From the NCBI GenBank assembly GCA_023150835.1, contig JAKLKB010000012.1:16858-80857 (forward strand): DNA of 64,000 bases, read 5' to 3'. The notes beneath the pieces were generated by a model. The model was not told the origin of the DNA, did not search any database, and saw only the letters and a program-made list of their open reading frames with translations. A program made the translations under genes and the position numbers. The DNA comes from Myxococcota bacterium (GTDB taxonomy: Bacteria; Myxococcota_C; UBA6777). The first letter of the stretch is position 1. The number at the start of each line of letters is the position of its first letter. Below, piece after piece: positions 26,941 to 61,321 of the stretch.

Positions 26941-28173
26941 TTATTGGGCGGTATAGCACAAACGGTTGCTCGGATCACCATTGGTATCGCTGGTGTAGAA
27001 ACCATGCGATTTGTCACGGTTATCGAGGCAGATGGTGAACTTGATCTTGCCGTCCACTTTGTTCGACGGATCGGTCGTGATGCTTGGGTTGCCAGCGATC
27101 GCTCCTTCACCTTTGTGGGTGGTGATGCTTGCGCGTTTGGTGTCGATCGATCCGGATTTGTTGTAGTAGCTAAAGCTAACTTCGACGGTGCCGTTGGCGT
27201 TATCTTTTCCACAAAGGCTTTTGTTTGCGTCAAAGGGACGACAATCGTAGCCGTTGGGACAATCGCTCGTGGTCGTACATTCGGTGCGGCTGCTGTCAGC
27301 GCTCCAACAAGAGTTCGAGGTGATGCGGTTGATCTTCACGTCGTGGATGATGCTGCCTTTGCTGGTTTCGATGCCTGTAGCCCAACCTTCGTTGCCTGTA
27401 GCGTTTTCGTCGCAGGCTTCGTTGGGGACGGCTTGGCAACCAGCTGTTTTGTTGTCGTCGGGGCAGTAGGTTTTCTTGGCGGCTTCGTGACAGACAGCGG
27501 TGGTGGTACAAGCAGCGGGGCCTTCGCAGACGTTGGTGGTGGTGTTGCACTTTTTGCCGCTACAGTTTTGATCCGACACGCATTCCACACATTTTCCAGC
27601 GGTGCTGCAAACTTTGCCGGGCTTGCTTGCGCACTGTGGGTCTGCTGTACACTCACGAGGCGGAGGGACGCACTTTTTGGGACTTGCAGCGGTGTCGCAA
27701 GTCGTGTTGGGGGCCTTGCCTGCGCAATCTGTATCGCCCTTGCACTCGTCGAGTTGTTGTCCGGGCTTCAAACAGAAGCTATCACGGCACTCTTCGCCAC
27801 CCGTACACTGCGTATTATCCGCGCATTTGATCACACAGGTTTTTTTGAAGGGATGACAAGCGTAGGTCGCGCCTTCTTTTGCACAAGCGGTCGCATCGCA
27901 GACGCAGCGGCTCAGGGTGTCATCGCATTTGTTTCCGGGATCGCAGTCTTTGAAGCTTGCGTCTTTGCAGTTTTTGAAGCACATACCTGCCGTTGTATCG
28001 CAGACTTCATCTGTTTTGCACTGCGTGTTGGAAGTGCATCCGCTTGTCCCACCGTCGCCACCGTCGGCGTTGGTGTTTTCGGTGTTGGTTCCGCCCGGAC
28101 ATCCGGCCAAAGTCGTTGCAAGCATCACCGCAAAAGCAGTTCCACACAAAAGGCTTATCCATCTTTGAATCAT
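26941..28173 (-). CDS. Cysteine-rich lipoprotein
   Basis: 410 residues. Lipoprotein signal peptide with lipobox L-A-G-C at about residue 24. A long series of Cys pairs follows (CTSNTQCKTDEVC, CTGGEECRDSFC, CTADPQCASKPGKVC, CVSDQNCSGKKC), a style common in myxobacterial secreted proteins. The last 150 residues lack this pattern and form a beta-rich domain with GKIKFTICLDNRD. Function unknown; surface or periplasmic location is inferred. GGAGG precedes the ATG by six bases. Disulfides here would be substrates for an oxidase of the DsbA type, which this region also encodes. Confidence 0.75.
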   Translation of the reverse strand: MIQRWISLLCGTAFAVMLATTLAGCPGGTNTENTNADGGDGGTSGCTSNTQCKTDEVCDTTAGMCFKNCKDASFKDCDPGNKCDDTLSRCVCDATACAKEGATYACHPFKKTCVIKCADNTQCTGGEECRDSFCLKPGQQLDECKGDTDCAGKAPNTTCDTAASPKKCVPPPRECTADPQCASKPGKVCSTAGKCVECVSDQNCSGKKCNTTTNVCEGPAACTTTAVCHEAAKKTYCPDDNKTAGCQAVPNEACDENATGNEGWATGIETSKGSIIHDVKINRITSNSCWSADSSRTECTTTSDCPNGYDCRPFDANKSLCGKDNANGTVEVSFSYYNKSGSIDTKRASITTHKGEGAIAGNPSITTDPSNKVDGKIKFTICLDNRDKSHGFYTSDTNGDPSNRLCYTAQ

Positions 28174-28842
28174 CACGTTCCTCCATGAGGGGTTGAGGTG
28201 GTCAAAGCCACCTTTGGGAAAGCGTTGTCGCTTTGCTTGTTTCTTTATGTCCTCGCTTGCGCGTTTTGTCAAAGTTTCGCAAGGCCCATTCCATCTTTTT
28301 TCTGCGCCCCCTTACAACACCAGAATCGCAAAACTTTTTTTCAAACCAGTGCGATCTTGCGCGCACACTCGCCCGTTCAAAACAACGCGACCTAGACATC
28401 TGTGTCATACTTTCGGTTCACGGCAGCGACGCTCTTCTTTCAACAAATCTCCGTGAATCGCCAGCGAGCGAAAGATCGGCTCGCCCAAACATAGAAAAAA
28501 TAAGCACGTTCTCTAAATAAGACGAGATAAAACGAGGCATCTCAAAAAGAGATCACCCTCCACCCTGTTTGTCCCCGTTTGCGCACGCTAGGTTCCATCA
28601 AAACAGGCGGAAGATGCTCACACAACAACAGAAGTTTACGTAGGGGCGGTTCGCGAACCGCCCGTGTATCGGGACATCGAGCAGCGAACGGACATACTCA
28701 CACAACAACACAAGTTTGTATGAGCAGCGGTTCGAGCAAGCAACATCCGCTTGTTTGCCTTTTGACGTACAAACGTGTTGTCTTTCCGACAACACAGACG
28801 AAGTGTCCGAGTGTTCGGGGTGGGGGGCCAACCATAGCTTAA
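28174..28842. other. Intergenic region with a perfect 20-bp palindrome
   Basis: No convincing gene. GGGCGGTTCGCGAACCGCCC at 28644-28663 is a perfect 20-bp palindrome, flanked by a direct repeat CTCACACAACAACA-AAGTTT near 28617 and 28694 (about 77 bp apart). The TAGGGGCGG...CCGCCCGTGTATCGG context resembles the dispersed intergenic hairpins elsewhere in the window. The promoter of the Cys-rich lipoprotein should lie at 28174-28400. Confidence 0.5.
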
Positions 28843-30180
28843 TCAGCTCAGGGCTGCTTTGCGCTGCTCTTTGGCTTGAGTGATCCGCTCGACTAGCTCT
28901 TTTGGAAACTGATCGCTGATGGCGCGAAACTGGTTCCATTGTTGGCGCAAGGCATCTAGGCTGCTGGTGCGAAGGATACCATGAAGGATCTTTTTTGCGG
29001 CCTCTTCGGGGTTTGCGATTGCAACACTCTGCTCTGTCTCGATCGGTTCGGGTGTTGTAGGGTGACCGACTTTTCTTCCGTGCGGCTCGCGTTCCGTTTC
29101 GCGTTGCGGTTTGGCTTTTTGGATCTTGGGTTCTTTTTGGTCTGAGGCATCCGAAGCAACTCGTGCGGCGTTTGTTTCAGGTTTCAAAGAAGCGGCTGCA
29201 TCAGCTTGTTCAGGCTTCAAAGAAGCGGCTACATCGACTTGTTCAGGTTGTGTTTGAAGGACAGGCGCTTCTTTCGGGGATTTTTCTTCAGGGCGCGTAG
29301 ATTTTTCTTCGGAGATCGTGTGATGATCTGTGCGGCTATCCGATAATTTTCCGCTCTCGTTGCTGTGTTGAGGTTCGTGATCGGTTTGTGCAACGTCGCT
29401 GGCGATCTGGCGAGAGGCGGATACTTCGGTCGAGTCGTGCGGAGCAACGTCAGCCGTCTCTTGAGAAACGACCGAAACAGTCGAAGCATGGGGTTCTTTG
29501 GCGCGTTCACCGAGTTCTTGGATCATCTGGCTGGCTTGGCTGCGCGTCAGATCGTCGAGATGTGAAGTACCGAAACGACGGTCTAATTCTGCACCCAAGG
29601 CCACCCGCGTCCAACCGATTTGCTTGCTCAGGCCGATCACAGCGTTGCGTTGTTTTTCCGTGGCGTGCAGAGGTTCTTGATCGTTGGTGTGGCTGCGTTG
29701 CTGCACGAGCCATTGGATGCGTTGCTCGTCGTCCAGTTCTTCCACCGCGCAAAACGGAACCGCAAAGGCCGAGCGCATCGCTCGTGCGCGAGCGCGGGTG
29801 ACAGCATGGCGAAACAAGGCGTGTCCTTTGAGTTTTGACGTGGTGGGATCGGCGTCTCCGTAGTCTTCAAAGGGATGCGAGCAAGCTTTTTTCCACACAC
29901 GGGCTTTGACCAGAAAAAAATCCTTGTCCCATCGGGCTTCGATGATATCGACCTCGCAACCGTCGTATTCGGGATCGCGGAGCGCCAGTTTTTGCAAACC
30001 AGCAGCCGTCACATACACTTGCCCGTTGAGGATCATCACTTCGCGAGTCAGAGGATCGAGGCCGTATTGGATGGCAACCAATTTAAGGGTCTCTCGCTCT
30101 TTTTCGTTGCGAACATCCCAGAGATGGGCGTATTGGTCGAGTTGTTCTTGGGAGGATGTGGAGGTTTTGGTGTCTTGCAT
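28843..30180 (-). CDS. RecT/Redbeta-like single-strand annealing protein (putative)
   Basis: 445 residues. The N-terminal 170 (QYGLDPLTREVMILNGQVYV, then GCEVDIIEARWDKDFFLVKARVW, then HAVTRARARAMRSAF) resemble phage Bet/RecT-type recombinases, which have G-L-(D/N)-P-x-x-R-E-(I/V) followed by a substrate-binding Y-x-G/D-G region and an R-A-x-x-R-A-L/M helix. Residues about 185-245 (EKQRNAVIGLSKQIGW, DLTRSQASQMIQEL) form a small helical module often found C-terminal in such proteins. Then follows a long low-complexity E/P/T/S/K linker with two ASLKPEQADAA-type repeats, and a final helical tail. No phage genes are nearby. AAGGAG lies six bases upstream of ATG 30180. Family assignment is tentative. 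Confidence 0.5.
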   Translation of the reverse strand: MQDTKTSTSSQEQLDQYAHLWDVRNEKERETLKLVAIQYGLDPLTREVMILNGQVYVTAAGLQKLALRDPEYDGCEVDIIEARWDKDFFLVKARVWKKACSHPFEDYGDADPTTSKLKGHALFRHAVTRARARAMRSAFAVPFCAVEELDDEQRIQWLVQQRSHTNDQEPLHATEKQRNAVIGLSKQIGWTRVALGAELDRRFGTSHLDDLTRSQASQMIQELGERAKEPHASTVSVVSQETADVAPHDSTEVSASRQIASDVAQTDHEPQHSNESGKLSDSRTDHHTISEEKSTRPEEKSPKEAPVLQTQPEQVDVAASLKPEQADAAASLKPETNAARVASDASDQKEPKIQKAKPQRETEREPHGRKVGHPTTPEPIETEQSVAIANPEEAAKKILHGILRTSSLDALRQQWNQFRAISDQFPKELVERITQAKEQRKAALS

Positions 30181-30399
30181 GGTCTGCTCCTTTGTGCGCG
30201 GTGTGCCGCGTGCATGACGTTTGATTTGCATTGCCCAGCCTACGCCATACTTTCGTCATAGCGCGTCATGCAGCCTCTTGGCAAAGAAAACTTTTATGGA
30301 CCAAGGGGGGGGGCAAGGGGTACAAAAAGACAGCGGGGAAACGGGCTGAAAAAGAGCGATACAAAGAGACAGCGGATCTTCTCGATAAGGCGGGCATCT

Positions 30400-32354: not shown

Positions 32355-35300
32355 TCACTTGGGGATACGGAGACCTTTGAGAACACGCGGATCGATGCGG
32401 AGGAGACGCGGGGCGGGTTTGGCGTTTCCTGCTTTGGCGAGTTCTTCGTCGATGACGGACTTGAACTGTTCAAAGGGTTGAGCGCCGACAACAGAACGAC
32501 CGTTGATAAAGAAGGTGGGCGTTCCGTTGGCTCCGGCTTCGCGAGCTTGTGTAAGATCAGCCTCGACGTAGGCTTTGTATTTGCCGCTATCAAGAGCTTG
32601 TTGGAAGCGCGCCGTGTCAAGACCTAGCTCTTGGGCCCATTTAACAAAGTTTTCTTTGTTGAGGTTGCGGAAGTTGGCAAACAGCTTGTCATGGAATTCC
32701 CAGAACTTGCCTTGTTCATGCGCAGCCATCGAGGCTTGAGCGGCGAGGTGGGCATTTTGATGGAAGGGCAACGGAAGGTGCTTGAATACCACGCGCACTT
32801 TGCCACCGTAGGCTTTTTTGATCTGTTCGATGGTTGCAGCCCCACGAGAACAGAAGGGACACTCAAAGTCCGAAAACTCCACGATGGTCACTGGAGCGTT
32901 GACAGGTCCGAAGGACGGGGCCTTTCCAGCATCGACCTTCACAACGGGCGGAGCTTGGGGGCGTTCAGGTTGAGGTGCAGCGGGACGGCCAAGTTGCTTG
33001 CCAGCAAGCACATCGTCGATCACTTGCTTGAAGCGGGAGTACGGCTGTGCGCCGACAACGCGAAGGCCGTTAACAAAGAAGGTAGGCGTTCCGTTGGCCC
33101 CGACAGAGCTTGCATAAGAGGCGTCGGCATCGACGTACTTGGCAAGAGCGGGATCATCAAGATCTTTTTTGAAGCGCGCCGTATCAAGGCCGACTTCTTG
33201 GGCCCACTTGAGGTAGTTGTCGCGGTTCAAGTTGCGGAAGTTGGCGAACAGTTTGTCATGGAATTGCCAGAACTTGCCTTGGCGATGTGCAGCCATCGAG
33301 GCGATAGCAGCGGGCTTGGCGTTGCGATGGAAGGGCAACGGAAGGTGCTTGAACACCACGCGCACTTTGTCGCCATAATTTTTCTTGATCTCGTCCATCG
33401 TTTTTGCGCCACGAGAACAGAAAGGACATTCAAAGTCCGAAAACTCGACGATCGTCACCTTGGCATCGGCAGGACCGAGAGTTGGTGCATCGCCAAGATT
33501 GATCTTCACGATGGGTTCGGGTTCGGGTTGACTCGGGCGTTGGGGAGCAGCAGCACCCGGTATCGGCTTTCCAGACAGTGCAGCGTCGATCATCTGCTTG
33601 AAGCGGAAGATCGGTTGCGCGCCCACAAGGACGTGGCCGTTGATGAAGAAAGTGGGTGTTCCGTTGGCCCCGACAGAGCTTGCATAAGAAGCGTCGGCAT
33701 CAACGTATCGGGCAAGAGCGGGATCATCGAGATCTTTTTTGAAGCGTTCGACATCAAGGCCAACTTCTTGGGCCCACTTGAGGTAGTTGTCACGGTTCAA
33801 GTTGCGGAAGTTGGCGAACAGTTTGTCGTGAAATTGCCAGAACTTGCCTTGGCGATGTGCAGCCATCGAGGCCACAGCAGCGGGCTTGGCGTTGCGATGG
33901 AAAGACAACGGCAAGTGCTTGAACACCACGCGGATCTTTCCAGCATAATCCTTCTTCAGTTGCTCGACCGTGGCGGCACCACGAGAGCAGAAAGGACACT
34001 CAAAGTCCGAAAATTCGACGAGCGTCACTTTGGCGTCGGCAGGTCCCCACGCTGGGGCATCACCGATCTTGATATCGACTTTGCTCGGAGGAGCCGAGGG
34101 CGTCGGGCGTTGGGGAGCATCGCCCGGGATAGGTTTTCCGGCCAGTTCGGCGTCGATGATCTGCTTAAAGCGGAAGAAAGGCTGCGCACCACCGAGTTCA
34201 AAACCGTTGATAAAGAAGGTGGGTGTTCCGTTGGCTCCGACAGAGCTTGCATAAGAAGCGTCGGCATCGACGTGCTTGGCAAGAGAGGGATCATCGAGAT
34301 CTTTTTTGAAGCGCTCGACATCAAGGCCGACTTCTTGAGCCCACTTGAGGTAGTTGTCACGATTCAAGTTGCGGAAGTTGGCAAACAGTTTGTCATGGAA
34401 TTCCCAGAACTTGCCTTGGCGATGCGCAGCCATCGAAGCCACCGCAGCAGGCTTGGCGTTGCGATGAAAAGACAACGGCAAGTGCTTGAACACCACGCGC
34501 ACTTGATCGCCGTAGGCTTTTTTCACTTCGCGGATCGTCGCGGCCCCACGAGTACAGAAAGGACACTCAAAGTCCGAAAACTCCACGATCGTGATCTTGG
34601 CGTTGGCGGAACCCCATGTCGGGGCGTTTCCGATCACCATCTTCTTGCGCGCCCCTGCCGCTGCGGGAGAGGGCTGCGGAGCAGGTGTGGGGGCCGAAGG
34701 AGCGGCTTTTCCAGAAAGGATATCGTTGATCACTTGTTGGAAGCGATCGAACGGTTGGGCTCCCACCACACTTTGGCCGTTGATAAAGAAGGTGGGTGTT
34801 CCGTTGGCTCCGTATTGACGGGCAAGAGCGAGGTCTGCATCAACAACGGCTTTGTATGTACCGCCGTCTAGCTCGCGTTGGAAGCGTTCGACGTTTAGGC
34901 CGAGTTCTTGGGCCCATTTGACAAAGTTTTCTTTGTTGAGATTGCGGAAGTTGGCGAAGAGTTTGTCGTGATAAGGCCAGAACTTGCCTTGTGCGTGGGC
35001 AGCCATCGAGGCTTGGGCAGCGAGGTGAGCGTTGCGATGGAAAGGCAACGGAAGATGCTTGAACACCACGCGCACTTGGTTGCCGTAGGCTTTTTTGATC
35101 TGCTCGATGGTTGCAGCCCCACGAGAACAGAAGGGACACTCAAAGTCCGAAAACTCCACGATCACGATCGGGGCATTGTTGGGTCCGAAGGAGGGGGAAT
35201 TTCCTAGTGGGATCGTGTTCTTCGCAGCGAGGCGGTTCAAGCTCGGGATCACAACAGAGGGTTGTGAAGGTCGTACAGTACGGCCTTTTCCGCTCAGTTC

Positions 35301-36626
35301 TTGATCGATAATGGTTTTGAATTGATCGAAGGGTTGAGCGCCGACGACGGACCGACCGTTGACAAAGAAAGTGGGCGTTCCATTGGCTCCTTCACGTCGA
35401 GCTTGTGCAAGATCGGCATCGACATAAGCTTTGTATTTGCCGCTATCAAGGGCTTGTTGGAAGCGAGCGACATCAAGGCCGAGTTCTTTGGCCCATCGGA
35501 TGTAGTTGTCGCGGTTCAAGTTGCGGAAGTTGGCAAAGAGTTTGTCGTGATAAGGCCAGAACTTGCCTTGTTCGTGTGCAGCCATCGAAGCTTGCGCTGC
35601 GGAGTGTGCGTTGCGATGAAAAGGCAACGGAAGATGCTTGAACACCACGCGCACTTGGTTGCCGTAGGCTTTTTTCACTTCGCGGATGGTGCTTGCGCCA
35701 CGAGTGCAGAAGGGACATTCAAAGTCCGAAAACTCCACAATCGTCACTTTGGCGCTGGCTGGTCCCCATGTCGGGGCATTGCCGAGGGCGATCTGTTTGC
35801 GAGGGCCGGTAGGAGCGGCTTCTGGGCGCGGTTGAGGTTTTTGAGCGAGGCCTTTGCCAACCACTGCTTGATAAACACGGCTTTTAGGCGTCCCAGACGC
35901 GATCATCTTTTGCGCGGTGCTGACTTCTTGGTCGATGATCTGCTTGAAACGTGCGAAGGGTTGGGCTCCTACAAGAATGCGACCATTGATGAAGAAGGTA
36001 GGCGTCCCGCCTGCCCCCATCTGTTGGGCATAACGATCATCGGCATCGACGTAGGCTTTGTATTTGCCGCTATCAAGGGCTTTTTGGAAGCGAGCGACAT
36101 CAAGGCCGAGTTCTTGGGCCCATTTGAGGTAGTTGTCGCGGTTCAAGTTGCGAAAATTGGCGAAGAGTTTGTCGTGATAAGGCCAGAACTTACCTTGTTC
36201 GTGGGCAGCCATCGAGGCTTGTGCAGCGGAGTGAGCGTTGCGATGAAAGCTGAGCGGGCGATGGCGAAAAGCCACACGTACTTTGTCGCCGTACACCTTT
36301 TTCACCATATCGATGGTGTTTGCGCCACGGTTGCAAAAAGGACATTCAAAGTCCGAAAACTCAACGATCGTCACTAACGCATCTTTGGGTCCGAAGGATG
36401 GGGCGTTTCCAACCTTCACGTTGTAGCGCTGCACATCCCGTGCAACAGCGCCTTCTTGGCCGCCACCGCGACCTGTCTTGTCAGCTTGTCCTCTGGTTGC
36501 TTTGCGCTCTTTCGTCGGCATCAAGCCCGTGAGTTTGGCGTCTTCAACACCAAACCGGCCCAGCATGAATCCGAAGAAGAGGCCAGCCACCACACCGATG
36601 ATGAGACCTTGCTTCATACCGTTCAT
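32355..36626 (-). CDS. Membrane-anchored protein with seven tandem DsbA-like thioredoxin domains
   Basis: 1423 residues. An N-terminal membrane helix (IIGVVAGLFFGFMLG, 8-22) and a short basic linker precede seven consecutive DsbA/thioredoxin-4-type domains of about 190 residues each. Each carries the active site E-C-P-F-C near residues 95, 303, 496, 687, 876, 1066 and 1255. Each also has the cis-Pro loop G-T-P-T-F-F-(I/V)-N-G and the conserved FRNLN(R/K)(D/E)N stretch. Linkers are P/A/Q-rich (30-45 residues). None has lost its cysteine pair. Single-domain relatives are periplasmic disulfide oxidases or chaperone-like Dsb proteins. Here the periplasmic array could act as a high-capacity oxidase or a tethered disulfide relay. 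It is probably co-transcribed with the single-domain protein 54 bp upstream. The ribosome-binding site (AAGG, about 12 bases away) is weak. Confidence 0.92.
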   Translation of the reverse strand: MNGMKQGLIIGVVAGLFFGFMLGRFGVEDAKLTGLMPTKERKATRGQADKTGRGGGQEGAVARDVQRYNVKVGNAPSFGPKDALVTIVEFSDFECPFCNRGANTIDMVKKVYGDKVRVAFRHRPLSFHRNAHSAAQASMAAHEQGKFWPYHDKLFANFRNLNRDNYLKWAQELGLDVARFQKALDSGKYKAYVDADDRYAQQMGAGGTPTFFINGRILVGAQPFARFKQIIDQEVSTAQKMIASGTPKSRVYQAVVGKGLAQKPQPRPEAAPTGPRKQIALGNAPTWGPASAKVTIVEFSDFECPFCTRGASTIREVKKAYGNQVRVVFKHLPLPFHRNAHSAAQASMAAHEQGKFWPYHDKLFANFRNLNRDNYIRWAKELGLDVARFQQALDSGKYKAYVDADLAQARREGANGTPTFFVNGRSVVGAQPFDQFKTIIDQELSGKGRTVRPSQPSVVIPSLNRLAAKNTIPLGNSPSFGPNNAPIVIVEFSDFECPFCSRGAATIEQIKKAYGNQVRVVFKHLPLPFHRNAHLAAQASMAAHAQGKFWPYHDKLFANFRNLNKENFVKWAQELGLNVERFQRELDGGTYKAVVDADLALARQYGANGTPTFFINGQSVVGAQPFDRFQQVINDILSGKAAPSAPTPAPQPSPAAAGARKKMVIGNAPTWGSANAKITIVEFSDFECPFCTRGAATIREVKKAYGDQVRVVFKHLPLSFHRNAKPAAVASMAAHRQGKFWEFHDKLFANFRNLNRDNYLKWAQEVGLDVERFKKDLDDPSLAKHVDADASYASSVGANGTPTFFINGFELGGAQPFFRFKQIIDAELAGKPIPGDAPQRPTPSAPPSKVDIKIGDAPAWGPADAKVTLVEFSDFECPFCSRGAATVEQLKKDYAGKIRVVFKHLPLSFHRNAKPAAVASMAAHRQGKFWQFHDKLFANFRNLNRDNYLKWAQEVGLDVERFKKDLDDPALARYVDADASYASSVGANGTPTFFINGHVLVGAQPIFRFKQMIDAALSGKPIPGAAAPQRPSQPEPEPIVKINLGDAPTLGPADAKVTIVEFSDFECPFCSRGAKTMDEIKKNYGDKVRVVFKHLPLPFHRNAKPAAIASMAAHRQGKFWQFHDKLFANFRNLNRDNYLKWAQEVGLDTARFKKDLDDPALAKYVDADASYASSVGANGTPTFFVNGLRVVGAQPYSRFKQVIDDVLAGKQLGRPAAPQPERPQAPPVVKVDAGKAPSFGPVNAPVTIVEFSDFECPFCSRGAATIEQIKKAYGGKVRVVFKHLPLPFHQNAHLAAQASMAAHEQGKFWEFHDKLFANFRNLNKENFVKWAQELGLDTARFQQALDSGKYKAYVEADLTQAREAGANGTPTFFINGRSVVGAQPFEQFKSVIDEELAKAGNAKPAPRLLRIDPRVLKGLRIPK
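32400..36430 (-). repeat. Seven tandem copies of a ~570-bp coding unit
   Basis: The same DNA blocks (GACATTCAAAGTCCGAAAAC and GTTGCGGAAGTTGGC types on the plus strand) recur at a spacing of about 570 bp. Near-invariant sequence is located at the active-site and helix positions while the linkers differ. Neighbouring copies share long runs at the nucleotide level, indicating recent duplication, homogenisation, or strong protein-level constraint. Confidence 0.9.
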
Positions 36627-36680: not shown

Positions 36681-37805
36681 TTATTTCCCTTGTTTGATCA
36701 GTTCGCTGTATACGTTTTCGGGTTTGATACCGCGCTGGAGCGCTGCGTCCGCGTCTTTGAGGGCGCGATTCGCCACGTCCAACGGGCTATCTTGCTCGCC
36801 CACAGGGTATCCGTTGATGTAAAAAGACGGAGTACCCGGGACGTTGATTTTTGTAGAAAGCTTGAGATCCTCTTGAACAGCGGTTGCGATGGCGGGATCT
36901 TTCAGGTCTTTTTGAAACTTCTCGACGTCCAGTTTGAGTTCTTTTGCGTAACGAACAAAGTCCTCCGCCTTGAGCTTTTCTTGATTTGCAAAGAGTTTGT
37001 CGTGGTACTCCCAAAACTTGCCTTGACGATGTGCAGCCATGGAGGCGATGGCAGCGGGCATTGCGTTTGGATGGAAGGACAGCGGAAGGTGGCGGTACGC
37101 CACACGGATGTTTTGCGCTCCGAACTGTTTTTGCAGCGCTTCCACTTGTTGATGGGCTTGTGCGCAATAAGGACATTCAAAGTCCGAAAAGATGACGATC
37201 GTGATCTTGGCGTTGGCGGGGCCTTTGATCGGTGCGCCATCGACGGGGATGGGGAGGGGCTTGTTGGCAGCGGCCTGTTTGGGAGCTTCTTGACCGACGC
37301 TGTCCAAGACTTTTTTGATCTCGTCTGCCGATTTGTTTTGTTTCACGGCATCCGCCACAAACTCCGCAACGCGCTGGATGCTTGGGCAAGTCTTGGAATC
37401 CGTTTGATAACAGCGCGCAAGGGTCTGGCCGCAACTGCAAGGATGCTTGAGCGTGTTTAGGATCTTCAATGCGAATTCTTGCTTTTCTTTGGAAAGCTCG
37501 GCCAAAGAAACACCTTGTAGATCAGAAGCCTTGAGCGCAGGTTGAGAGGCCGGAGCAGAAAGAACAGGCGCGCATCGCGCAGGGCTGGGTTCTTTCTGTG
37601 CTTTGGCCACCACTTCTCGACGGCGTGCTGGAGGACTTGCCGTAGGAACCGCATTGACCTGATGTGTGGGGTACAAAACGGGATACGCAGGGGGAGGAAT
37701 TAAGCCACCAAACCGACCGAACCACGCCCCAAACAGGAATGCCGCAAAGACCCAACCACTATAAAGAAACATTCGCTTTGAGCTCGAAAGAGCTTGCTCA
37801 CTCAT
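36681..37805 (-). CDS. DsbA-family oxidoreductase with N-terminal CcmH-like Cys segment
   Basis: 374 residues. N-terminal membrane helix (FLYSGWVFAAFLFGAWFG, 13-30) and a Pro/Ala-rich spacer. Then comes a helical segment (about 105-165) with P-C-S-C-G-Q-T-L-A-R-C-Y and C-P-S-I-Q-R-V-A-E-F-V, reminiscent of the CcmH/NrfF heme-handling motif and its D-E-I-x-x-x-L helix. A DsbA domain follows (about 188-374) with active site E-C-P-Y-C and cis-Pro loop G-T-P-S-F-Y-I-N-G. It is thus similar in fold to one unit of the seven-domain protein encoded next. GGAGG precedes the ATG. Functions in periplasmic disulfide formation or cytochrome maturation are inferences. Confidence 0.85.
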   Translation of the reverse strand: MSEQALSSSKRMFLYSGWVFAAFLFGAWFGRFGGLIPPPAYPVLYPTHQVNAVPTASPPARRREVVAKAQKEPSPARCAPVLSAPASQPALKASDLQGVSLAELSKEKQEFALKILNTLKHPCSCGQTLARCYQTDSKTCPSIQRVAEFVADAVKQNKSADEIKKVLDSVGQEAPKQAAANKPLPIPVDGAPIKGPANAKITIVIFSDFECPYCAQAHQQVEALQKQFGAQNIRVAYRHLPLSFHPNAMPAAIASMAAHRQGKFWEYHDKLFANQEKLKAEDFVRYAKELKLDVEKFQKDLKDPAIATAVQEDLKLSTKINVPGTPSFYINGYPVGEQDSPLDVANRALKDADAALQRGIKPENVYSELIKQGK

Positions 37806-38121: not shown

Positions 38122-38326
38122 GCGGCACAAGAACAGAAAAACATCTGCAAGTGTCTTTGATTTTCTTTTTCGATCAAGCAGATAGGATTCTATTGCGTTC
38201 CTTTCCTGCGTTGATGAGCCTTGCGTGTTTTGCTTGGATCTTTGATAACGTGCCAAGAGGAAAGGGTGCGTATTCTTTTTTTGTGGAACTGCGCACGAGC
38301 GCATGGTGTTTGGTGCAGGAGAAGAC

Positions 38327-39649
38327 ATGGACTTCCGAAAGATTGGGTTCGCTCTAGGAACTGCGGCGTTTGTCGTATTTGTCGCACTTGCAGGCGCTTG
38401 TGGCCCCGGCAAAGAAGGCGCACGCTGCCAAGCCACAAAAGAGTGCGACACGGGCCTTCGCTGTGTCGACTTTGTGTGTAAGGCCTCTCTTCCTCAGCCT
38501 GAAAAAACGCTCGAAGAAGCCAGCGCAGACGCCGAACCCATCGGCGAGATCGCAACAGACGCCTCTCCCGAAGAAGCTATCTCCAACCCCGAAGAAGCTA
38601 TCTCCAACCCCGAAGAAGCTGTCTCCAACCCCGAAGAAGCTATCTCCAACCCCGAAGAAGCTGTCTCCAACCCCGAAGAATCCGTCTCCAATCCTGAACC
38701 CCAACCCGAATCAAACCCCGAATCTTCGACGGGTCCGACCCTTTATGATCTCCTTGATCCGACATCTTCACAAATCGGTCAAGAAGGCGCGACGGTCGAG
38801 ATCAGCCAAGTCGTGATGATGTCGCCTGCCTCCCGACTGGCCGCCACATTGGATCTGTTCTTTGTTCAAGAACCCCAAGCACGCCAAGGAAGCTACCGTT
38901 ATGGCGGGATCGCAGTCGTTTTTGAACGCGACAAGATCCAGATCGGCACCCTCTCTGTGGGTTCGCGGATCGCGATCAAAGGCCGTTTTACGCGGTACCG
39001 AACGGTAGATTGGGCGGCCAACTGTACAACGGACGCCGATTGTACAAACGCCCAGAAGAACCGATGTTCCGATGTTTACGACAAAAAAACATCCAGCGTC
39101 GTCAAGCGATGCGCAACGGCCCAGTCCGTTCCACAGATCGAACTGAGCCAAACCCCAAGTGTTGTCGGCGCAGGCCCCGTCCCTGCTCCCGAAGAAGTCA
39201 AAACTTCTGACATCAACAAAGATGGCACAACCGCCCAAGCCTACCTTGGCGTTTACCTCGAAGTCAAACAAGTCCAAGTGACGAACAAAAACCCCGATGA
39301 TCCCAGTGATTTCGGCGAATTTCTGGTCGCCCCCACCAACAACCTCAACGAAACCCTTCGTATCGACGATCAGATCAACACCATCGCCTACACAGGAGCC
39401 AAGTTCTGCGGATGCGGCACAGGCAACCAACCTGACAACACCTACTGCTTGCCGGGCGACACCTGCCAGTGCGTGGGAGCGCAAGTCTGCGGTGGAACCA
39501 AGCGCGGCTGTTGTTTTGCGCAAGGAACACAACCCTCCCAAGACACCCGCTCACAAGGCGATACCTTTGCGTCGATCCGTGGAGTTCTTTATTTCAGTTT
39601 CAACAACTACAAGTTGCTTCCGCGCATTCCCACCGATATGCAAAAGTGA
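38327..39649 (+). CDS. Lipoprotein with NPEEA(I/V)S heptad repeats and OB-like domain
   Basis: 440 residues. Lipoprotein-type signal (FALGTAAFVVFVALAGAC). A short Cys segment (C-x5-C-x5-C) follows, then an acidic region with six NPEEAIS/AVS/SVS heptads (about 82-122), probably a flexible spacer. The central part (TVEISQVVMMSPASRLA, then GGIAVVF, then GTLSVGSRIAIKGRF) looks like an OB-fold of the extracellular nuclease-associated type. A Cys-rich loop (CGCGTGNQPD, then C-V-G-A-Q-V-C-G-G) comes near the end. Function unknown. AGGAG is five bases upstream of the ATG. First gene of a three-gene plus-strand cluster. Confidence 0.75.
   Translation: MDFRKIGFALGTAAFVVFVALAGACGPGKEGARCQATKECDTGLRCVDFVCKASLPQPEKTLEEASADAEPIGEIATDASPEEAISNPEEAISNPEEAVSNPEEAISNPEEAVSNPEESVSNPEPQPESNPESSTGPTLYDLLDPTSSQIGQEGATVEISQVVMMSPASRLAATLDLFFVQEPQARQGSYRYGGIAVVFERDKIQIGTLSVGSRIAIKGRFTRYRTVDWAANCTTDADCTNAQKNRCSDVYDKKTSSVVKRCATAQSVPQIELSQTPSVVGAGPVPAPEEVKTSDINKDGTTAQAYLGVYLEVKQVQVTNKNPDDPSDFGEFLVAPTNNLNETLRIDDQINTIAYTGAKFCGCGTGNQPDNTYCLPGDTCQCVGAQVCGGTKRGCCFAQGTQPSQDTRSQGDTFASIRGVLYFSFNNYKLLPRIPTDMQK
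38569..38695 (+). repeat. 21-bp tandem repeat (six copies) inside the lipoprotein gene
   Basis: GAAGAAGCTATCTCCAACCC-type units repeat every 21 bp with single changes (A/G in the Ile/Val codon; the sixth is divergent). The period of seven codons keeps the frame and gives EEAISNP heptads. Confidence 0.95.
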
Positions 39650-39700: not shown

Positions 39701-41356
39701 ATGCGAAGATTGTTTTGTTTTTGGATGGGGGTGATGGCGATCGCGAGCGCGGCATGCTACTCACCCGTCGAACCGCCCACCATCTCGGGGGATTTTGTCA
39801 TAAGCCTGTCTTTCCAACAAAATCCCGATCTTGGAAAAAGCGCCGATAAACCCCGACCTGTAGCGCGCTTGGGCGAGATCGCTCAAATCGACATCCAAGC
39901 CCGCAAGCTCGCCCCCGACGGAACCGCCTCCAACAACGACGCCTATGATGGCTATATCTGCCTGTATTCTTCGCGTGGTTTGCTCGAAGGTACGGGAAAA
40001 GCCGTCAAGTTGTCAAATGGCCGCGCCCAAGTCCCCCTGCGCATCCGTCTGGCTTTTGGAAAGGTCACGCTGTGGGTGGGCGAAGTCAAAGATGATCCCA
40101 CCAACCCCGGCCCAAACGGCGTACCGATCTGCCCTGACAATGCCAACCCACAAGACAAAACTCGCCCATCTGTCGGACAATCGGGATCTTCTGCCCCGAT
40201 CTTTTACCAGCTCCTCAGCGTCGCCGATCTCCAAGAAACAGACGCCAGTTCGGGCGATTCCCCGCTCTACAAACGCCAAGCCGTGTTGGGGAGTGGAAAG
40301 ATGGTTGTCACAGCCGTCACCAACAACGGCTTTTATATCAGCGACATGAACGCCGTCGCCACGGGCTTAAAGTATGCCTCCGCCTTTATCTTCACATTCT
40401 CCGCCCCCAACCTCGCCTTTGAAGATGGCGAAGCTCCCCGCCTGCTCGAAGTCGGCGAACTGATCCATTGCATACAAGGCGGTGTTGACGAGTTCAGCGG
40501 TCATACCCAACTCACCTTTCCCAGCTTTACACCCATCTGGAAAACCTCCACCCCCGAATGCGGAAAACCCCCACCCCAAGGCAAAAATGAGATCCAACGT
40601 ATCCCCGTCGATCAACTTCCGCCACCGATCGAGATCGCTTCGGATATCTTGTGGACGCGATCCAAAATGGAACCCTACGAATCCGCGATCGTCGAAGTCA
40701 AAAACACCGTCGCGATCCCCTTTTCTCAAAGCCAAGACGGATGGCAAGAATTCCGCCAGTGGCCTGTCTTGATGGTCGAAGCGGATCGTCCCGAAGATCG
40801 CGCAGCATGTGAGAACTACATCCGCACCGAATTGATGCTCCACAACGATCCAGCCAAAAACGATCTCGCCAAAAGCACCTACCGTACGGGCCTCAAAGCT
40901 TGCTTCGACGCACGAAAACCCGCCGAAGATGCTTGCACCAAAACCCGCAGCACCTGCACCAAAGAGGCAACCGCTTGTGAAGCCGATCTCACCGCCTGTA
41001 AACAAAAAGTGGTCGACACTTGGTACACTTGCTTTTTTGATGAACGCTTCCGAACCACCGAACCCAAGGGACTTTTCCCTCGCCTCGAAGCCTTTACCCC
41101 CCAAGGCGCTCAGGCTCCTGCCGTCTGTCGTTATGGGATCATGCTTGTGATCTCGAACGCCACCGTCCCCGAGTTGGATGTCACCACCCAAGAACACCTC
41201 ACCCGTCGTTTTACACGGATTCGCGGTGTCCTCCAGCAAACCAAAGCCAGTTCCTACTACGGACTCGTCAACGATCAATATCCCGATGAACTCTCAAACA
41301 ACGGCTATGTGATCTTGGTCCGAAACAGCGACGATATCGTCGTTGAGAAAAAATAG
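39701..41356 (+). CDS. Lipoprotein with OB-like segment
   Basis: 551 residues. Signal with Cys at about 19 (A-S-A-A-C). It lacks the heptads of its neighbour but shares the OB-like pattern: MVVTAVTNNGFYISDM, then S-A-F-I-F-T-F-S-A-P, V-G-E-L-I-H-C-I-Q-G-G-V-D-E-F-S-G-H-T-Q-L. This is typical for domains in secreted nucleases and adhesins. A second part is rich in charged residues, with cysteines spaced C-x-K-T-R-S-T-C and C-x6-C (about 410-440). Starts 51 bp after the previous gene, so probably co-transcribed. Confidence 0.7.
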   Translation: MRRLFCFWMGVMAIASAACYSPVEPPTISGDFVISLSFQQNPDLGKSADKPRPVARLGEIAQIDIQARKLAPDGTASNNDAYDGYICLYSSRGLLEGTGKAVKLSNGRAQVPLRIRLAFGKVTLWVGEVKDDPTNPGPNGVPICPDNANPQDKTRPSVGQSGSSAPIFYQLLSVADLQETDASSGDSPLYKRQAVLGSGKMVVTAVTNNGFYISDMNAVATGLKYASAFIFTFSAPNLAFEDGEAPRLLEVGELIHCIQGGVDEFSGHTQLTFPSFTPIWKTSTPECGKPPPQGKNEIQRIPVDQLPPPIEIASDILWTRSKMEPYESAIVEVKNTVAIPFSQSQDGWQEFRQWPVLMVEADRPEDRAACENYIRTELMLHNDPAKNDLAKSTYRTGLKACFDARKPAEDACTKTRSTCTKEATACEADLTACKQKVVDTWYTCFFDERFRTTEPKGLFPRLEAFTPQGAQAPAVCRYGIMLVISNATVPELDVTTQEHLTRRFTRIRGVLQQTKASSYYGLVNDQYPDELSNNGYVILVRNSDDIVVEKK

Positions 41357-41497: not shown

Positions 41498-43123
41498 ATG
41501 GACCGTCGGATGCAAAAAAACTGTTGGATACTCTCGTGCCTTTTCTTGTGCTTGATCAGCTCGCTCTCTCCGATGCACGCCCAAGCTGGCGACTTTATGG
41601 ATACACGTATCACCTTTGCGCTTTCGGACGACAACCTGTTGCTCGGCCCCGGCCTCAGCAACCCCTCAAGCCCCTCCACCAGCTTCGTCCCGGGCGCACG
41701 TAGCGTCCTCTTCTTCGACAACTACAACAAACGCGACTCGGGCTTTGAATCGCTCTCCCATGTCGCGTTGTACAAAGAGATGCCGTCCTTTTTCAAAGGG
41801 CTTACGACTGCGGCTGCGTTGGTTGTGCGGATGGATTATTTCCTCGAACGTCGCGAGTTTCGCTTGACTGACGCAGGAAGCTACATCCGCACCACCTACT
41901 TCTTCAACCCCGAAGACGCCACCGCCAAAGAAAAACCCAAACTGCGCCGAAACCTCGATATCGTCGCCTTCCCGCTCAGTTCGGATCGTTTTCGGATGGG
42001 TTATAGTTTTCGGATCTCTTGGGGAGGAGACTTCACCTTCCCTCGCCGCTCGATCAAAAGCCCCGTCCCGGGTGTGAAAGCTCAACTAAACTACGATTTC
42101 TCCGAATCTGCGGGACTTTCTATCTTTCTCGGCGGCAAAACTGTGTTGCTCCAACAGCTCATCACCCGCGAACAGATCGAAGAAGAAGTCGGCTACGGAA
42201 TCTTGGGTGGTTTCGCCTTGCGTCTCGGCCAATTTTCATGGGAAGGCGGCGGCGCTTTTTTCAACAAAGGCACCTTCTTTAACCCCACCGTCAAAGCCGA
42301 ACCCATCTACTTTTACGGCGGTTCGACACAGATATCCTACGCGATGGGCATCCCAGTAGGCGTCTCGATGGACTTTGCGCTGTATCGAAACGATCCGCTC
42401 AAACCACAAAAATTCTTCAAACCCGAACAATACGTCCCCGGCAAGTTTAGTTTCATGGTCGCCGCCGAAGCCTCGGTGGTTGCGAACCTTTTGGAAAACC
42501 CCGACCCCGCCCAAGTCGGTGGGATCGTCCCCCAAGTCGGCATCGCAGCCGACCTCAACTTTCGCATGAAATACGGCTATTGGCGGATGCACCTTGATGT
42601 GATGTACCGCGATCTTTCTTTCATCTTGCAAAACGTCCCCGGCTTTGTTCCCTTCCAAGCCTTCGCAAACGATCAAGTCCAAACACCCGAATTCTTCGCA
42701 GCCTTGGGTGTAGATTATCACATCGCCCCCGCTCACCTGACCTTGGGGCTGATCGTCGGTCTTCAAATCCCCTCGACCTTCCGAGGCGTCATCCCCAAAG
42801 AACTCACCGGACAAGTCCCCGTCGGCAGCACCACAGGCCAACAGATCGTCGTCGTGCGCGGTGAAGGCGACTTTGTCCTTCTCCCAACCGTCGATGCTGC
42901 CGGAAACAAAGTCGAGATCATCCCGATCGTCAGCGCAAAACTGACCTTCAAATGGCAACTCAGCGAGTTTATGGCCATCATCGGCGACGTGTTGTTCAGC
43001 TTTGACAGCAACGAAACACGCCTCGAACGCGCCCAATACACGGGCGATGGAACGGTTGTCAGCCGCGTGTTTGTCGATCCGATCCGCCTCGGCTTCAATC
43101 TCATGGGACAAGCCCGCTTCTAA
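41498..43123 (+). CDS. Predicted outer-membrane beta-barrel protein
   Basis: 541 residues. Signal peptide (LSCLFLCLISSLSPMHAQA), then many amphipathic strands with aromatic girdles and a C-terminal NLMGQARF ending in Phe, as for Bam substrates. It follows the two lipoproteins on the same strand (141 bp gap); the trio may form an outer-membrane complex. I do not recognise the family. ATG 41498 is preceded by AAAGGA at a somewhat long spacing; an in-frame ATG four codons later is possible. Confidence 0.72.
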   Translation: MDRRMQKNCWILSCLFLCLISSLSPMHAQAGDFMDTRITFALSDDNLLLGPGLSNPSSPSTSFVPGARSVLFFDNYNKRDSGFESLSHVALYKEMPSFFKGLTTAAALVVRMDYFLERREFRLTDAGSYIRTTYFFNPEDATAKEKPKLRRNLDIVAFPLSSDRFRMGYSFRISWGGDFTFPRRSIKSPVPGVKAQLNYDFSESAGLSIFLGGKTVLLQQLITREQIEEEVGYGILGGFALRLGQFSWEGGGAFFNKGTFFNPTVKAEPIYFYGGSTQISYAMGIPVGVSMDFALYRNDPLKPQKFFKPEQYVPGKFSFMVAAEASVVANLLENPDPAQVGGIVPQVGIAADLNFRMKYGYWRMHLDVMYRDLSFILQNVPGFVPFQAFANDQVQTPEFFAALGVDYHIAPAHLTLGLIVGLQIPSTFRGVIPKELTGQVPVGSTTGQQIVVVRGEGDFVLLPTVDAAGNKVEIIPIVSAKLTFKWQLSEFMAIIGDVLFSFDSNETRLERAQYTGDGTVVSRVFVDPIRLGFNLMGQARF

Positions 43124-43137
43124 TCTCCACAACAGCC

Positions 43138-43247
43138 GCAGGGGACGCGGCCTTGATGGTTAGAGTGCTTGGTCGCAGGGGACACGGCCTTGATGGTTAG
43201 AGTGCTTGGTCGCAGGGGACGCGGCCTTGACGGTTAGAGTGCTTGGC
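43138..43247 (+). repeat. 37-bp tandem repeat (three copies) at the 3' end of gshB
   Basis: GGGGAC(G/A)CGGCCTTGA-GG units start at 43141, 43178 and 43215, period 37 bp with one or two changes each. The third copy contains the stop codon (TTA on the plus strand at 43234-43236) and last codons of the minus-strand gshB gene. The two other copies lie beyond its end and repeat the same stop. Confidence 0.95.
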
Positions 43248-44169
43248 CGAGCGTGTGAAAAATGGGGTCGGTGACGGATTGGGAGGAGACTTGTTGGAGC
43301 TCAGCAAGTCCGATGGGGCAGGAGAGATTCAACTCGATCAACAAGCCATCGCTGACATCGAGGCTCGCCAAGAAGATGCCTTCTTCGCGCAGCACAGGTC
43401 CAACGGTGCGGATGATGGCTTGATCTTTTTCGGAAAGCTGGACGGATACGGGTTTTGCGCCTCGATTGAAAGAGCCGCGTAGCTCGCCCATGCCCGGGAC
43501 TTGAAGCGCCACACCAAGAAAGTTCCCATTCAACAAAAAGAGGCGCTTGTCGCCGTCTAGCTCGGTATCATTGATCATCTTCTGCACAAGGACGTATTGT
43601 TGGCCTTGTTGCGTCAAAAGCTCCGAAAGCAGCTTGGTGTTGGGGTCACCCATCCGCAGGAAAAACATATTGTGTCCTTGGGACGCATGGAGAGGGCGGA
43701 TCGTGGCCTTCCCACCGACTTCGGACAAAAAGGCGCGGATCGCATCGGGATGCTTGGTCACCAAAGAAGGCGGGCAGAACGAAGGGAAGCGCAGCGCAAA
43801 CAGATGTTCGTTGAGGTTGCGCAGCGTGCGCGGGGCATTCAACACAGCCGTCGAGGGCGGAAGCATCTGTAACGCATCCAGAGCAAACAGCGTATCCGGC
43901 GCAAAAGGCGGAGACTTCCGCCACCACAACAGGTTCAACTGATCGAGCGGCGCGAGAAACGACTCGCCCAGTACGACCCGCCCTCCTTCCACCGAGATCG
44001 GAGCCATATAACCAACGGGACGGCTTTGTTGGATGTGAAGATCAGACACTTCCATCCAAAAAAGTTGGTAGCCGTAATTTTGAGCGGCTTGCATCAGCAA
44101 GAGAGTAGTAGTGTCGTTTTCTTCGAGGTGTTCGAGATGATCAGTCACGAAAGCGATACGTTTGGTCAT
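43234..44169 (-). CDS. gshB: Glutathione synthetase (ATP-grasp)
   Basis: 311 residues, close to the usual 315-320. It joins gamma-glutamylcysteine and glycine with ATP. The N-terminal domain matches GshB (IAFVTDHLEHLEENDTTTLLLMQAA). The ATP-grasp core carries the D-T-E-L-D-G-D-K-R-L-F-L-L-N-G motif, R-G-S-F-N-R-G near the phosphate loop, and L-D-V-S-D-G-L-L-I-E-L-N at the metal-binding end. The start at ATG 44169 (CGGAG about eight bases upstream) fits the family. No gshA is nearby, so glutamylcysteine must come from elsewhere or another substrate is used. Its C-terminal codons lie in the 37-bp repeat. Confidence 0.85.
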   Translation of the reverse strand: MTKRIAFVTDHLEHLEENDTTTLLLMQAAQNYGYQLFWMEVSDLHIQQSRPVGYMAPISVEGGRVVLGESFLAPLDQLNLLWWRKSPPFAPDTLFALDALQMLPPSTAVLNAPRTLRNLNEHLFALRFPSFCPPSLVTKHPDAIRAFLSEVGGKATIRPLHASQGHNMFFLRMGDPNTKLLSELLTQQGQQYVLVQKMINDTELDGDKRLFLLNGNFLGVALQVPGMGELRGSFNRGAKPVSVQLSEKDQAIIRTVGPVLREEGIFLASLDVSDGLLIELNLSCPIGLAELQQVSSQSVTDPIFHTLGQAL

Positions 44170-44286
44170 TGCGGCAACTCCGTCGCGAGGGGAAGCGGGT
44201 ACAAGGGCATCTCTGTGGAGGGGTATGATGCCGATTTTCAACCTCTTGTCGAGGGGGAAACAACGATCCGCCACAAAAAGACCACA

Positions 44287-47200
44287 CTATCGAGCGGGTG
44301 GCGGCCAAGGTAGCGGCCTTTGATGTGCAGGCAAGGGCGAACTTTCAGGCTTGGGGGCGTTGAGTTGTCGGCTCAACTCATCAGGTGTGTCTTTGGTGGA
44401 AAGTACGACAGACTCGGATTGTCCGCTTTGTAGGTTGGTGGCCCGAAGCGTCAAGAGGCACTCGTTGCTGAGTTTAAATTGAAGCTCGACTTTGTGGACA
44501 CCTTTGGGAGCGGGCTGTATGCCTGCAAGATGCAAGGTTCCAAGGTATTCGTTTTCTAGGGCGTTTTGGCTTTCGCCTTGGAATATCGGCAAATCGAGTA
44601 CGGTCTGGTTGTCGCGGGTGGTTGCGGTGACGAAGTTCTTTTCAAACGGCAGCGGTGTGTTGGCAGCGATCACAGGAACAAAGCGCCCTCCGGGAAGGCC
44701 GATGCCGATCGGCAACGCCAGAACATCGATCAAACGAACCGCGTTCTTTTTGCCGAAGGAGTGGGCCAACAGAGCCGTCCCGATCGCTACAGCCTCGTCA
44801 GGATGGACGTTTCGGTGAGGCGGCTTGCCGAAATAAGCCGTCAGGCGCTCGTGAATCAAGGGCATCCTTGTCATCCCACCCACAAGAAGAACTTCATCGA
44901 TATCTTCTTTCTTTAATTCACGCGCTTTCATCACGGCTTCACAGACGCGCAGAGTCTCTTCGACAAGGCCCTTGACAAGGGAGTTTAGAGCATCGCGTGT
45001 GATCTCTTGCTCAAGATGGATGGGCTTTCCGCCCCGCTGCAACAGGTACGGGATGTTGATCCGTGTGCGTTTCTCCATCGACAGATCACACTTGGCTTTT
45101 TCGCAAGCATCCCGAACCCGCTGCATCTGGATCGGATCATTGCGAAGATCGATCTGGGTCTCTCGATAGAAGTCGCGGATCACGTGATCGATCAAGATGT
45201 TGTCAAAGTCGACTCCGCCCAAAAAAGTATTTCCGCCCGTCGAGATCACTTCAAACACATCTTTATCGACTTCGAGCACAGAAGCATCGAAGGTTCCGCC
45301 GCCCAGATCGTACACCAACAGGCGCTGTTGGATCCCACGCCCGAAGCCGTACGCAAGCGCCGCTGCCGTCGGCTCGTTGACGATACGCTCGACTCGCAGA
45401 CCTGCCAACAAGCCCGCATCTCGGACGGCTTGGCGTTGTTGATCGTTGTAGTGTGCTGGGACACTAATCACCGCACGATGAACGGGCTGGTGCAGGTATT
45501 CTTGTGCGATATCCCGAATCTCCGCAAGAATCAGCGCAGATATCTGTTCGAGCGTAAAGGTCTTTTGATCGATGTATACCGCCGACCCGCCTTCGGACGT
45601 TTCGACGATGCTGTAGAGAAAACGATCTTTGATCAACTGTACAATCCGCGAGCGATACTTTCGCCCGATCAACCGCTTGGCTCCATAGACCGTGTTGCGC
45701 GGATTCAACATCATCTGATTTTTAGCGGGGTGGCCGATCAACAGCTCGTGTTCGTCACTAAAAGCCACGATCGATGGGATCGTATTGTATCCAAAGCGCG
45801 ACGGGATGACCTTGGGTCGGCCCTCTTCGACGATCGCACAACAACTGTTTGTAGTCCCTAGATCGATGCCGATAATCGGGCCTGTCAGGGGGATATCTTC
45901 GATCTTTCCTTGGAAAAACAGCAGTTCCTCGCGGTGCGAAGACAGCGACGCAAACTGCATCATCGTGGGATTCACCGCCTGCCCTTGGAGTGTCGGCATC
46001 GGCATCGTGCCGCTTGGAGTGTTGGTAGGAGACACGCTTGGGTTAGCGATGCTGATCGGTGCGGATGCAGCGGGAAAACCACTTCCACCGGTGGGAGGGG
46101 TCACGTCTTGAGCAGGCGACACTTTTGGATTTGCAGCGCGGGCAGCGAGCGGCCCCCCCAAAAGCGGCGTCGCTTCGGTCGGGGCATGGGGCGAGAGCGG
46201 ACTCCCAAAAAGCGGTGTTGTTTCGGTCGGTGCATGGGGCAAGAGCGCCCCCGAAAGCATCGGCGTCACTTCGGTCGGATGCGAAGAAACCGTGTGCCCC
46301 GTCAAAACAGGCGTGACCTGCGTTGGTGCATCCGAAGAAGGCAGACTCCCCGCCAACGCCCCCCCCAAGGGGGCCTGAAAGGACGGTGCCCCAAGTGTTG
46401 GCCGTTGCATCGCGCCTGTTCGCGAAAAGATGCTCGGTTGTGGAGGGCGTGGCGGCTGTGGCGAAGCTTGCGGCAGCGAAGACAACGGTTGCGAGGATTG
46501 CTGCGATTGCGGAGAGGACGACAGCAACGGCGATTGCGGCGACTGTTGCAAGGATTGTTGCGGCTGTGGTGAGGGCGACAGCAACGGCGGCTGTGGTGGT
46601 TGTGCAGATTGTGGTGGGGACGTTCGAGAGAGAGCGGGTGGTAGATGCGATGGCTGCGGAGAGTACGATGGTTGCGGAGATTGTGGCGGTGGAGTTCCTT
46701 CGCGTCCAAACGGCGGAGGCGACGAAGGAACAGGGCGTCCGAGTACTGGAGCTGGTTCCGAGGGGGGGTAGGTAGAACGAGAGATGGTCTCCGGTGGAAA
46801 GAAACTGCCTTGGATCACGGGTGGAAGATTCGCTTGCAAAGACACAGGAGCAGGCGTTGGGGGCATCGGGGAGGCGCTTGGCGGTGGAGCTGTACGAGGG
46901 AGGCGATTTCCGAGATCGGGATCACCGCTACCACCGAGTATCGGGGAGGCACTTGGCGGTGGAGCTGTACGCGGGGGCTGCGACCGGTGGGGAGGCGTGA
47001 ACGTAGGGATGATCGCAGAGGACTCCATCGGCAAAGGAAACTCATCGCCGATAGGTTGTTCTTCTCCTGCTGAGCGAAAAAGCGACGGATTGTGCGGGTA
47101 GGTTGCAGGAGGATTGGGGGGAGGCGTTGCAGAAAACACAGGTGCGCTGACGCTCGGTCGGTTGGGCATCTCGATCGGCGGTTGCGAAACAGACAACGGA

Positions 47201-47586: not shown

Positions 47587-47775
47587 GCCTGCACTCCTTA
47601 TCAGAAAGGGAGTCGTACGATGCGGGGGACGGAAAAGATGCACAAAAACAAAGCAGTGTATAGCGATGTTTGGGCGCAAAACGGATCGCGTACCCAGAAC
47701 CCGCGACGTTAACACAAAGCACATCGACTCGCAATCTTCGGCCCAAAACAGCCCCCCTCTCGCTCGTGTTGAATT

Positions 47776-61104: not shown

Positions 61105-61321
61105 GAGTTGCTCCTTCGTGTTGCAAAAAAGCGGGGAACCGTTCAAAGACCAAAGTCTACGCCATCTCAAAAGATTTTTCCAGAACACATCCATCCTCAA
61201 AAGCGCCACATCCCCAAACAGACCAGCACAGCCGCTTTTTGGTCTCGTGTGGGTGGACAAAACCAGCCGATTGCGATACAACCAACCCCTTTGGAGCGAA
61301 TGAAAAACAGGAGCATGGTCG

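Follow-up and report, generated by a model that had tools for sequence, protein, structure and literature searches.

A membrane-anchored protein with seven DsbA-like domains, an extreme variant of a tandem DsbA type of Myxococcota

The array gene and its locus

The stretch of DNA analysed here (64,000 nucleotides of a Myxococcota bacterium, in the following called the window) contains a gene that encodes seven intact DsbA/Thioredoxin_4 domains together with an N-terminal anchor in one protein. It is preceded by a gene for a single-domain relative, and genes for envelope proteins diverge from the pair:

32355..36626, minus strand: multi-DsbA (array) gene, 1423 amino acids, ATG start, seven Thioredoxin_4/DSBA domains
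36546..36602, minus strand: hydrophobic anchor at the N-terminus (MNGMKQGLIIGVVAGLFFGFMLGR...), of the type found as MKPNVIVALLVGLVLGFVGGR in the Myxococcota three-unit proteins
35907..36428, minus strand: DsbA unit 1, CPFC at nucleotides 36333-36344
35283..35798, minus strand: DsbA unit 2, CPFC at nucleotides 35706-35717
34704..35219, minus strand: DsbA unit 3, CPFC at nucleotides 35127-35138
34134..34646, minus strand: DsbA unit 4, CPFC at nucleotides 34554-34565
33567..34079, minus strand: DsbA unit 5, CPFC at nucleotides 33987-33998, AlphaFold model with pLDDT 98
32994..33509, minus strand: DsbA unit 6, CPFC at nucleotides 33417-33428
32424..32942, minus strand: DsbA unit 7, CPFC at nucleotides 32850-32861
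36681..37805, minus strand: upstream partner gene at a distance of 54 bp from the array gene, 374 amino acids, CxCG-C-C module and anchored single DsbA domain (CPYC)
38303..39649, plus strand: probable Cys-rich lipoprotein, divergent, possibly a substrate or partner, with 15 cysteines invariant across three genera
39701..41356, plus strand: second Cys-containing probable lipoprotein, 8 invariant cysteines, synteny kept
41498..43123, plus strand: conserved envelope protein, 60% identical across genera at the same locus

Pfam finds exactly seven Thioredoxin_4 stretches (E 4e-195) and seven DSBA stretches (E 3e-172) in the array protein, the number already given in the preliminary description of this DNA, and the scores of the whole protein are 642 bits for PF13462 and 569 bits for PF01323 against curated cut-offs of 23.2 and 25.6. 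The units can be addressed as DsbA-like since all seven show the CxxC and cis-Pro motifs, and the model, by its Foldseek matches to DsbA-like enzymes, fits a thioredoxin fold with a helical insert. CPFC starts at residues 95, 304, 497, 688, 877, 1067 and 1256 (the positions first reported were right to within one residue), and TPT of the GTPT cis-Pro loop lies at residues 208, 417, 610, 801, 990, 1180 and 1369; each domain thus has the intact cysteines and loop that had been ascribed to it. The 14 cysteines of the protein are all found within its seven CPFC pairs and its pI is 9.6. About 66 residues precede unit 1, comprising the anchor and a low-complexity linker. Hydrophobicity has its maximum at residues 7-27, in agreement with the proposed membrane anchor, and no lipobox was found at this N-terminus. 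Scans for sigma-70 promoters and terminators gave match numbers no higher than in shuffled sequences.

Protein identity among the seven units is 63-82%, with units 4-6 being closest to each other, and their DNA is 66-82% identical (18-34% difference). As the units have diverged to this extent and the longest exact DNA repeat inside the gene measures 59 nt, a short-read artefact is unlikely. We reject an assembly artefact as the likely cause of the seven units also because relatives have arrays too. A congeneric metagenome-assembled genome (KLAP109) contains the three C-terminal units with 94% protein identity up to the contig end, which falls within the gene.

The pair of upstream single-DsbA gene and array gene is kept in four genomes from three genera. 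The whole order (single-DsbA gene, array, lipoproteins, envelope protein) is preserved in G003 and G004, and in G002 as far as the contig reaches. At the loci examined in other Myxococcota this lipoprotein synteny was not seen next to the three-unit genes. The product of 41498..43123, for which Pfam yields no match, is probably an outer-membrane barrel. Cys-rich secreted neighbours had been noticed from the beginning and are confirmed, namely a PilY1/MopE protein, a nine-motif MopE protein and a Cys-rich lipoprotein (26941-28272, minus strand).

In the upstream gene (36681-37805) a CxCG-x(4-8)-C module with one further cysteine behind it precedes the DsbA domain, and the same arrangement is found in some multi-DsbA proteins (L127 8245-13347, L039, L201 and L210). 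This module could possibly bind a metal or form an extra redox site.

Predicted structure and structural neighbours

The AlphaFold model of a single unit (unit 5, pLDDT 98) was compared with known structures by Foldseek. Its best PDB matches are 3gyk, an oxidoreductase from Silicibacter, TsdA/DsbA of Corynebacterium diphtheriae, alpha-DsbA2, ScsC and BdbD, and among these alpha-DsbA2 and ScsC are isomerases. TsdA/DsbA of C. diphtheriae (4pwo, 7unn) resembles one array unit with a TM-score of 0.87 (query-normalised) and 35% identity; it is likewise membrane-tethered and has CPFC, but consists of a single domain.

In a model of units 5-7 the domains mostly reach a pLDDT above 90 and the linkers about 50, with a pTM of 0.60 and no confidence in the relative placement of the domains. 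This is as expected of rigid domain beads on loose Pro/Ala-rich strings, and the array may be pictured in this way; the flexible Pro-rich linkers assumed earlier fit the model well.

Distribution and copy number

Twenty Thioredoxin_4 domains are distributed over eight genes in the window's genome: seven in the array, five in a lipoprotein paralogue, two each in a third gene and in a VKOR fusion, and the remaining ones in four single-domain genes. A 1218-residue frame of this genome (L010:4653-8306, G000:C83) ends in two DsbA units at the C-terminus; the long region in front of them yields no Pfam match.

The syntenic array gene contains four units in G003, seven in the window's genome and eight in G004. 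Partial copies show at least two units in G002 (contig end) and at least three in G001 (contig start). The paralogue has five units in the window's genome (G000), G001, G002 and G004, and six in G003. In a phylogenetic tree of the units, in which many inner branches have modest support, the window's array appears as a lineage-specific expansion with units clustering by genome, and the unit positions of the paralogue are largely orthologous across genera.

The query P0001 was matched in 171 of 195 Myxococcota genomes at E <= 1e-40. The best of these loci that were examined, including those in single-contig genomes, mostly encode an anchor of the type MKPNVIVALLVGLVLGFVGGR followed by three CPFC units. 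The array protein fits this anchored multi-DsbA type of Myxococcota, defined by an N-terminal anchor followed by at least two tandem CPFC DsbA units. With the three-DsbA proteins (about 660-700 amino acids, NCBIfam NF041057-type domains) it shares the type of anchor, the domain, CPFC, GT-cisPro and the Pro/Ala linkers, and it differs from them by having seven instead of three (sometimes two or four) units. Omnitrophota and one archaeal metagenome-assembled genome also possess tandem units.

Against NCBIfam NF041057 (Rcas_1661 thioredoxin-like (seleno)lipoprotein) the array protein sums to 734 bits with a cut-off of 190, a total of seven partial matches of which the best stretch covers positions 72-246 of 247. 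By sequence the catalytic domain belongs here, and the whole array protein is placed outside the equivalog, as it has neither a full-length match nor a lipobox.

A paper of 2009 mentions in passing that some bacterial DsbA-like proteins contain two or three DSBA domains (PMC2757866); they also carry their DSBA domains in tandem in one chain, with a maximum of three. Together with the anchored three-unit form, which is spread throughout Myxococcota, they speak against a unique architecture, and the initial view of tandem DsbA domains as essentially unprecedented has to be given up. That this is a common and already described architecture holds for two or three units; five or more were found only in the window's family among the loci examined in this non-exhaustive census. 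Besides the mention of 2009 we found, in the library searched, no literature on the function of tandem DsbA proteins or on longer arrays. The seven-unit protein is an extreme variant of a known, functionally uncharacterised two-/three-unit type of Myxococcota.

Conservation of the individual sites

A survey of 266 full-length units, taken from 81 proteins in which at least three units occur, reveals CxxC in 263 of them; of the remaining three, one has CPFS and the other two are pieces truncated by a UGA codon in the reading frame. The first cysteine, the cis-Pro and the preceding threonine are invariant in 264/264 aligned units, detected by a profile made from such domains that a badly decayed unit could escape, and GT-cisPro is present in 256/264. 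Per-unit dN/dS is 0.03-0.09; for units 5, 6 and 7, compared between the window's species and its genus mate, it amounts to 0.04-0.09. These ratios indicate that every tested site in the arrays is under purifying selection.

In the b domains of protein disulfide isomerase (PDI) the cysteines are lost. The units of the arrays, in contrast, keep theirs, and degenerate or spacer domains of the PDI b type are ruled out by the first cysteine and cis-Pro found in all 264 aligned units.

Selenocysteine-containing relatives

The window's own array protein contains no selenocysteine (Sec). In relatives, the following loci each encode a tandem DsbA protein in which three active sites have an in-frame UGA, with SECIS-like stems:

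L129:5524-8887 (G004:C31)
L120:5867-9061 (G002:C139)
L062:4629-6642

The active sites of the five-unit paralogue in G004 and G002 read UPFC, CGFC, UPYC, UPYC and CPFC; UGA stands precisely in the place of the first cysteine of units 1, 3 and 4. This UGA active-site pattern occurs three times each in G002 and G004 and is absent from the window's genome. L062 stems from a metagenome-assembled genome outside the window's family and encodes a three-unit protein with UPFC, UPFC and UPYC.

The stem after UGA has seven lower pairs, three of them with double changes, and 78.8% of its cells are paired compared with at most 45.5% when the pairing is slid. Its covariation exceeds that of all 500 shuffles, for a pairing selected after viewing single-sequence folds and a one-position-shifted pairing; an automatic consensus fold of the nucleotides after UGA missed the SECIS-like stem. 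A tRNA-Sec with about 70 bits was detected in G000, G002, G003 and G004, and SelA is present in every genome of the family except G004, which is 86% complete. Since UGA in these genes is restricted to the first cysteine of CxxC and tRNA-Sec is found in both G002 and G004, reassignment of the stop codon is less likely than insertion of Sec.

In two reviews the Sec-containing DsbA-like protein figures as a plain UxxC entry, for which one review gives a single Sec, and neither mentions arrays. Tandem DsbA proteins with several Sec are apparently undescribed. As UGA/Sec occupies exactly the position of the first active-site cysteine in the paralogue of the relatives, the first cysteine of a unit is very likely a true redox nucleophile in the window's family.

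Redox partners

The only oxidase of the DsbB/VKOR type found in the window's genome is a VKOR-DsbA-DsbA fusion (L012:3845-5659, G000:C113) with CPFC and CPSC. This means that of the possible partners in a DsbA-DsbB/VKOR pathway VKOR is available, fused to its own DsbA domains, and DsbB is absent. No DsbB match was obtained in any genome of the family; each has one VKOR and two to four DsbD_TM matches.

Probable function of the array

We give a probability of about one half to the reading that the array is a membrane-tethered, covalently concatenated disulfide isomerase/oxidoreductase that serves Cys-rich envelope proteins. Tandem duplication of one DsbA-like domain would have led to a thiol-disulfide oxidoreductase on the inner membrane that faces the periplasm, in which each of the seven domains is, by sequence and model, a complete catalytic unit. 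Because the Pro/Ala-rich linkers are flexible, the seven nucleophilic CPFC sites could sweep a volume around the anchor. Several sites per chain would most likely allow efficient shuffling and proof-reading of disulfides, i.e. an isomerase or foldase activity like that of ScsC or PDI, and candidate substrates are Cys-rich proteins of the envelope, among them the lipoproteins encoded alongside. The redox state of the array might be maintained by the VKOR-DsbA fusion and/or by DsbD-type transporters, both of which the genome encodes.

This reading is favoured since an array of CPFC/GT-cisPro units on flexible linkers fits, within one chain, the design known from two earlier studies. Strong isomerase activity requires two or more catalytic domains, and GT-cisPro is present in each of the five isomerases compared (PMC6450060); the array, in which seven catalytic domains are linked and have GT-cisPro, combines both features. 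In PmScsC both the linker and the trimer are required, and the monomer from which the trimer stalk is removed turns into an oxidase (PMC5524982). ScsC and alpha-DsbA2 share the DsbA-like catalytic fold with the array, and these two and DsbC share GT-cisPro and several flexibly joined catalytic domains per particle. They differ by having one domain per chain and by oligomerising, whereas the array is covalent and shows, apart from anchor and low-complexity linker, no N-terminal oligomerisation region of at least 50 residues (ScsC/DsbC type). Gene duplication would achieve in the array what oligomerisation does in ScsC or DsbC. Eukaryotic members of the PDI family (PDI, ERp46, ERdj5) consist of thioredoxin-type domains, typically with CGHC, and many have non-catalytic domains in addition. 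They resemble the array in that several redox-active domains of thioredoxin fold are joined in one chain of the secretory pathway.

GT-cisPro by itself is modest evidence for an isomerase and cannot serve as proof, because it is common in single-unit relatives (55/72). Further observations run counter to the isomerase reading: CPFC is also found in the VKOR-fused DsbA of the window's genome, the single-domain TsdA is capable of oxidative folding in vivo (PMC9974433), and the lipoprotein synteny is missing from the three-unit loci examined in other Myxococcota.

The main rival is the multi-site dithiol oxidase or intramolecular relay proposed in the preliminary description, in which substrate electrons would pass via any CPFC to the VKOR-DsbA fusion and on to quinone, giving more oxidase capacity near the translocon. 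A genome with VKOR fused to two DsbA domains, without DsbB and with abundant Cys-rich secreted proteins, is consistent with it, as is TsdA, a CPFC protein able to take the place of the oxidase MdbA in vivo (PMC9974433), and direct exchange has been documented among individual members of the PDI family (PMC4613490). CPFC, however, lacks the oxidising histidine, the loop is GT-cisPro and not the variable or V loop, and the close structural relatives of the unit are as often isomerases as oxidases; for TsdA, which has CPFC and lacks the histidine of strong oxidases, a primary role as oxidizer has been argued against (PMC9974433). A relay moreover requires domain-to-domain exchange, for which the model offers no confident relative domain placement. 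Such a role is possible, but with CPFC lacking histidine, the GT-cisPro of isomerases and multiple linked catalytic domains we do not favour it.

It is unlikely, though a live alternative, that the array acts in reduction and repair, in sulfur stress or as a metal (copper) buffer, with CPFC sites kept reduced by DsbD/CcdA acting on non-native disulfides or sulfenic acids, or with ScsC-like metal binding, and capacity rising with the number of domains. CcScsC binds Cu(I) (PMC8900818), the family genomes contain two to four DsbD_TM loci, a glutathione synthetase gene is close by, and Sec in place of the first cysteine would suit a reductive nucleophile; this last argument, however, applies to the paralogue of the relatives and not to the array protein, and no gene for metal handling or DsbD is linked to the locus. 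A neutral repeat number, with unequal crossing-over varying array length and one or two sites functional, would agree with the varying copy number of the syntenic gene (4, 7, 8) and with units clustering by genome, but is very improbable in view of the near-complete retention of CxxC, the strong purifying selection on each tested unit and the largely orthologous positions of the five-unit paralogue across genera.

Returning to the tethered isomerase/oxidoreductase, known bacterial isomerases gain multiple catalytic sites by oligomerising; a whole phylum apparently builds single chains of several DsbA domains instead, and one family extends the linkage to five to eight sites. We tentatively suggest that covalent DsbA arrays run the envelope disulfide chemistry of this lineage, with two to eight sites of Cys or Sec tuned by duplication and recoding, as a prokaryotic counterpart of PDI that includes chains with three Sec. 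The array offers a direct handle on how the number of sites and their tethering convert an oxidase into an isomerase, and the Sec-bearing paralogues amount to a natural experiment in which Cys is exchanged for Sec at defined positions.

Further genes of the window

The prokaryotic glutathione synthetase gene (43234-44274) lies less than 7 kb from the DsbA array and is followed at 44287-47724 by one frame of 1145 residues in which PilZ and Hsp70 are fused, with an uncertain start codon. A conserved gene at 28843-30231 resembles by eye RecT-type recombinases (without a Pfam hit) and is located downstream of the array in G001 and G004, too. The protein of 902 residues encoded at 58732-61440 contains 93 cysteines and nine motifs of the MopE copper-binding type.
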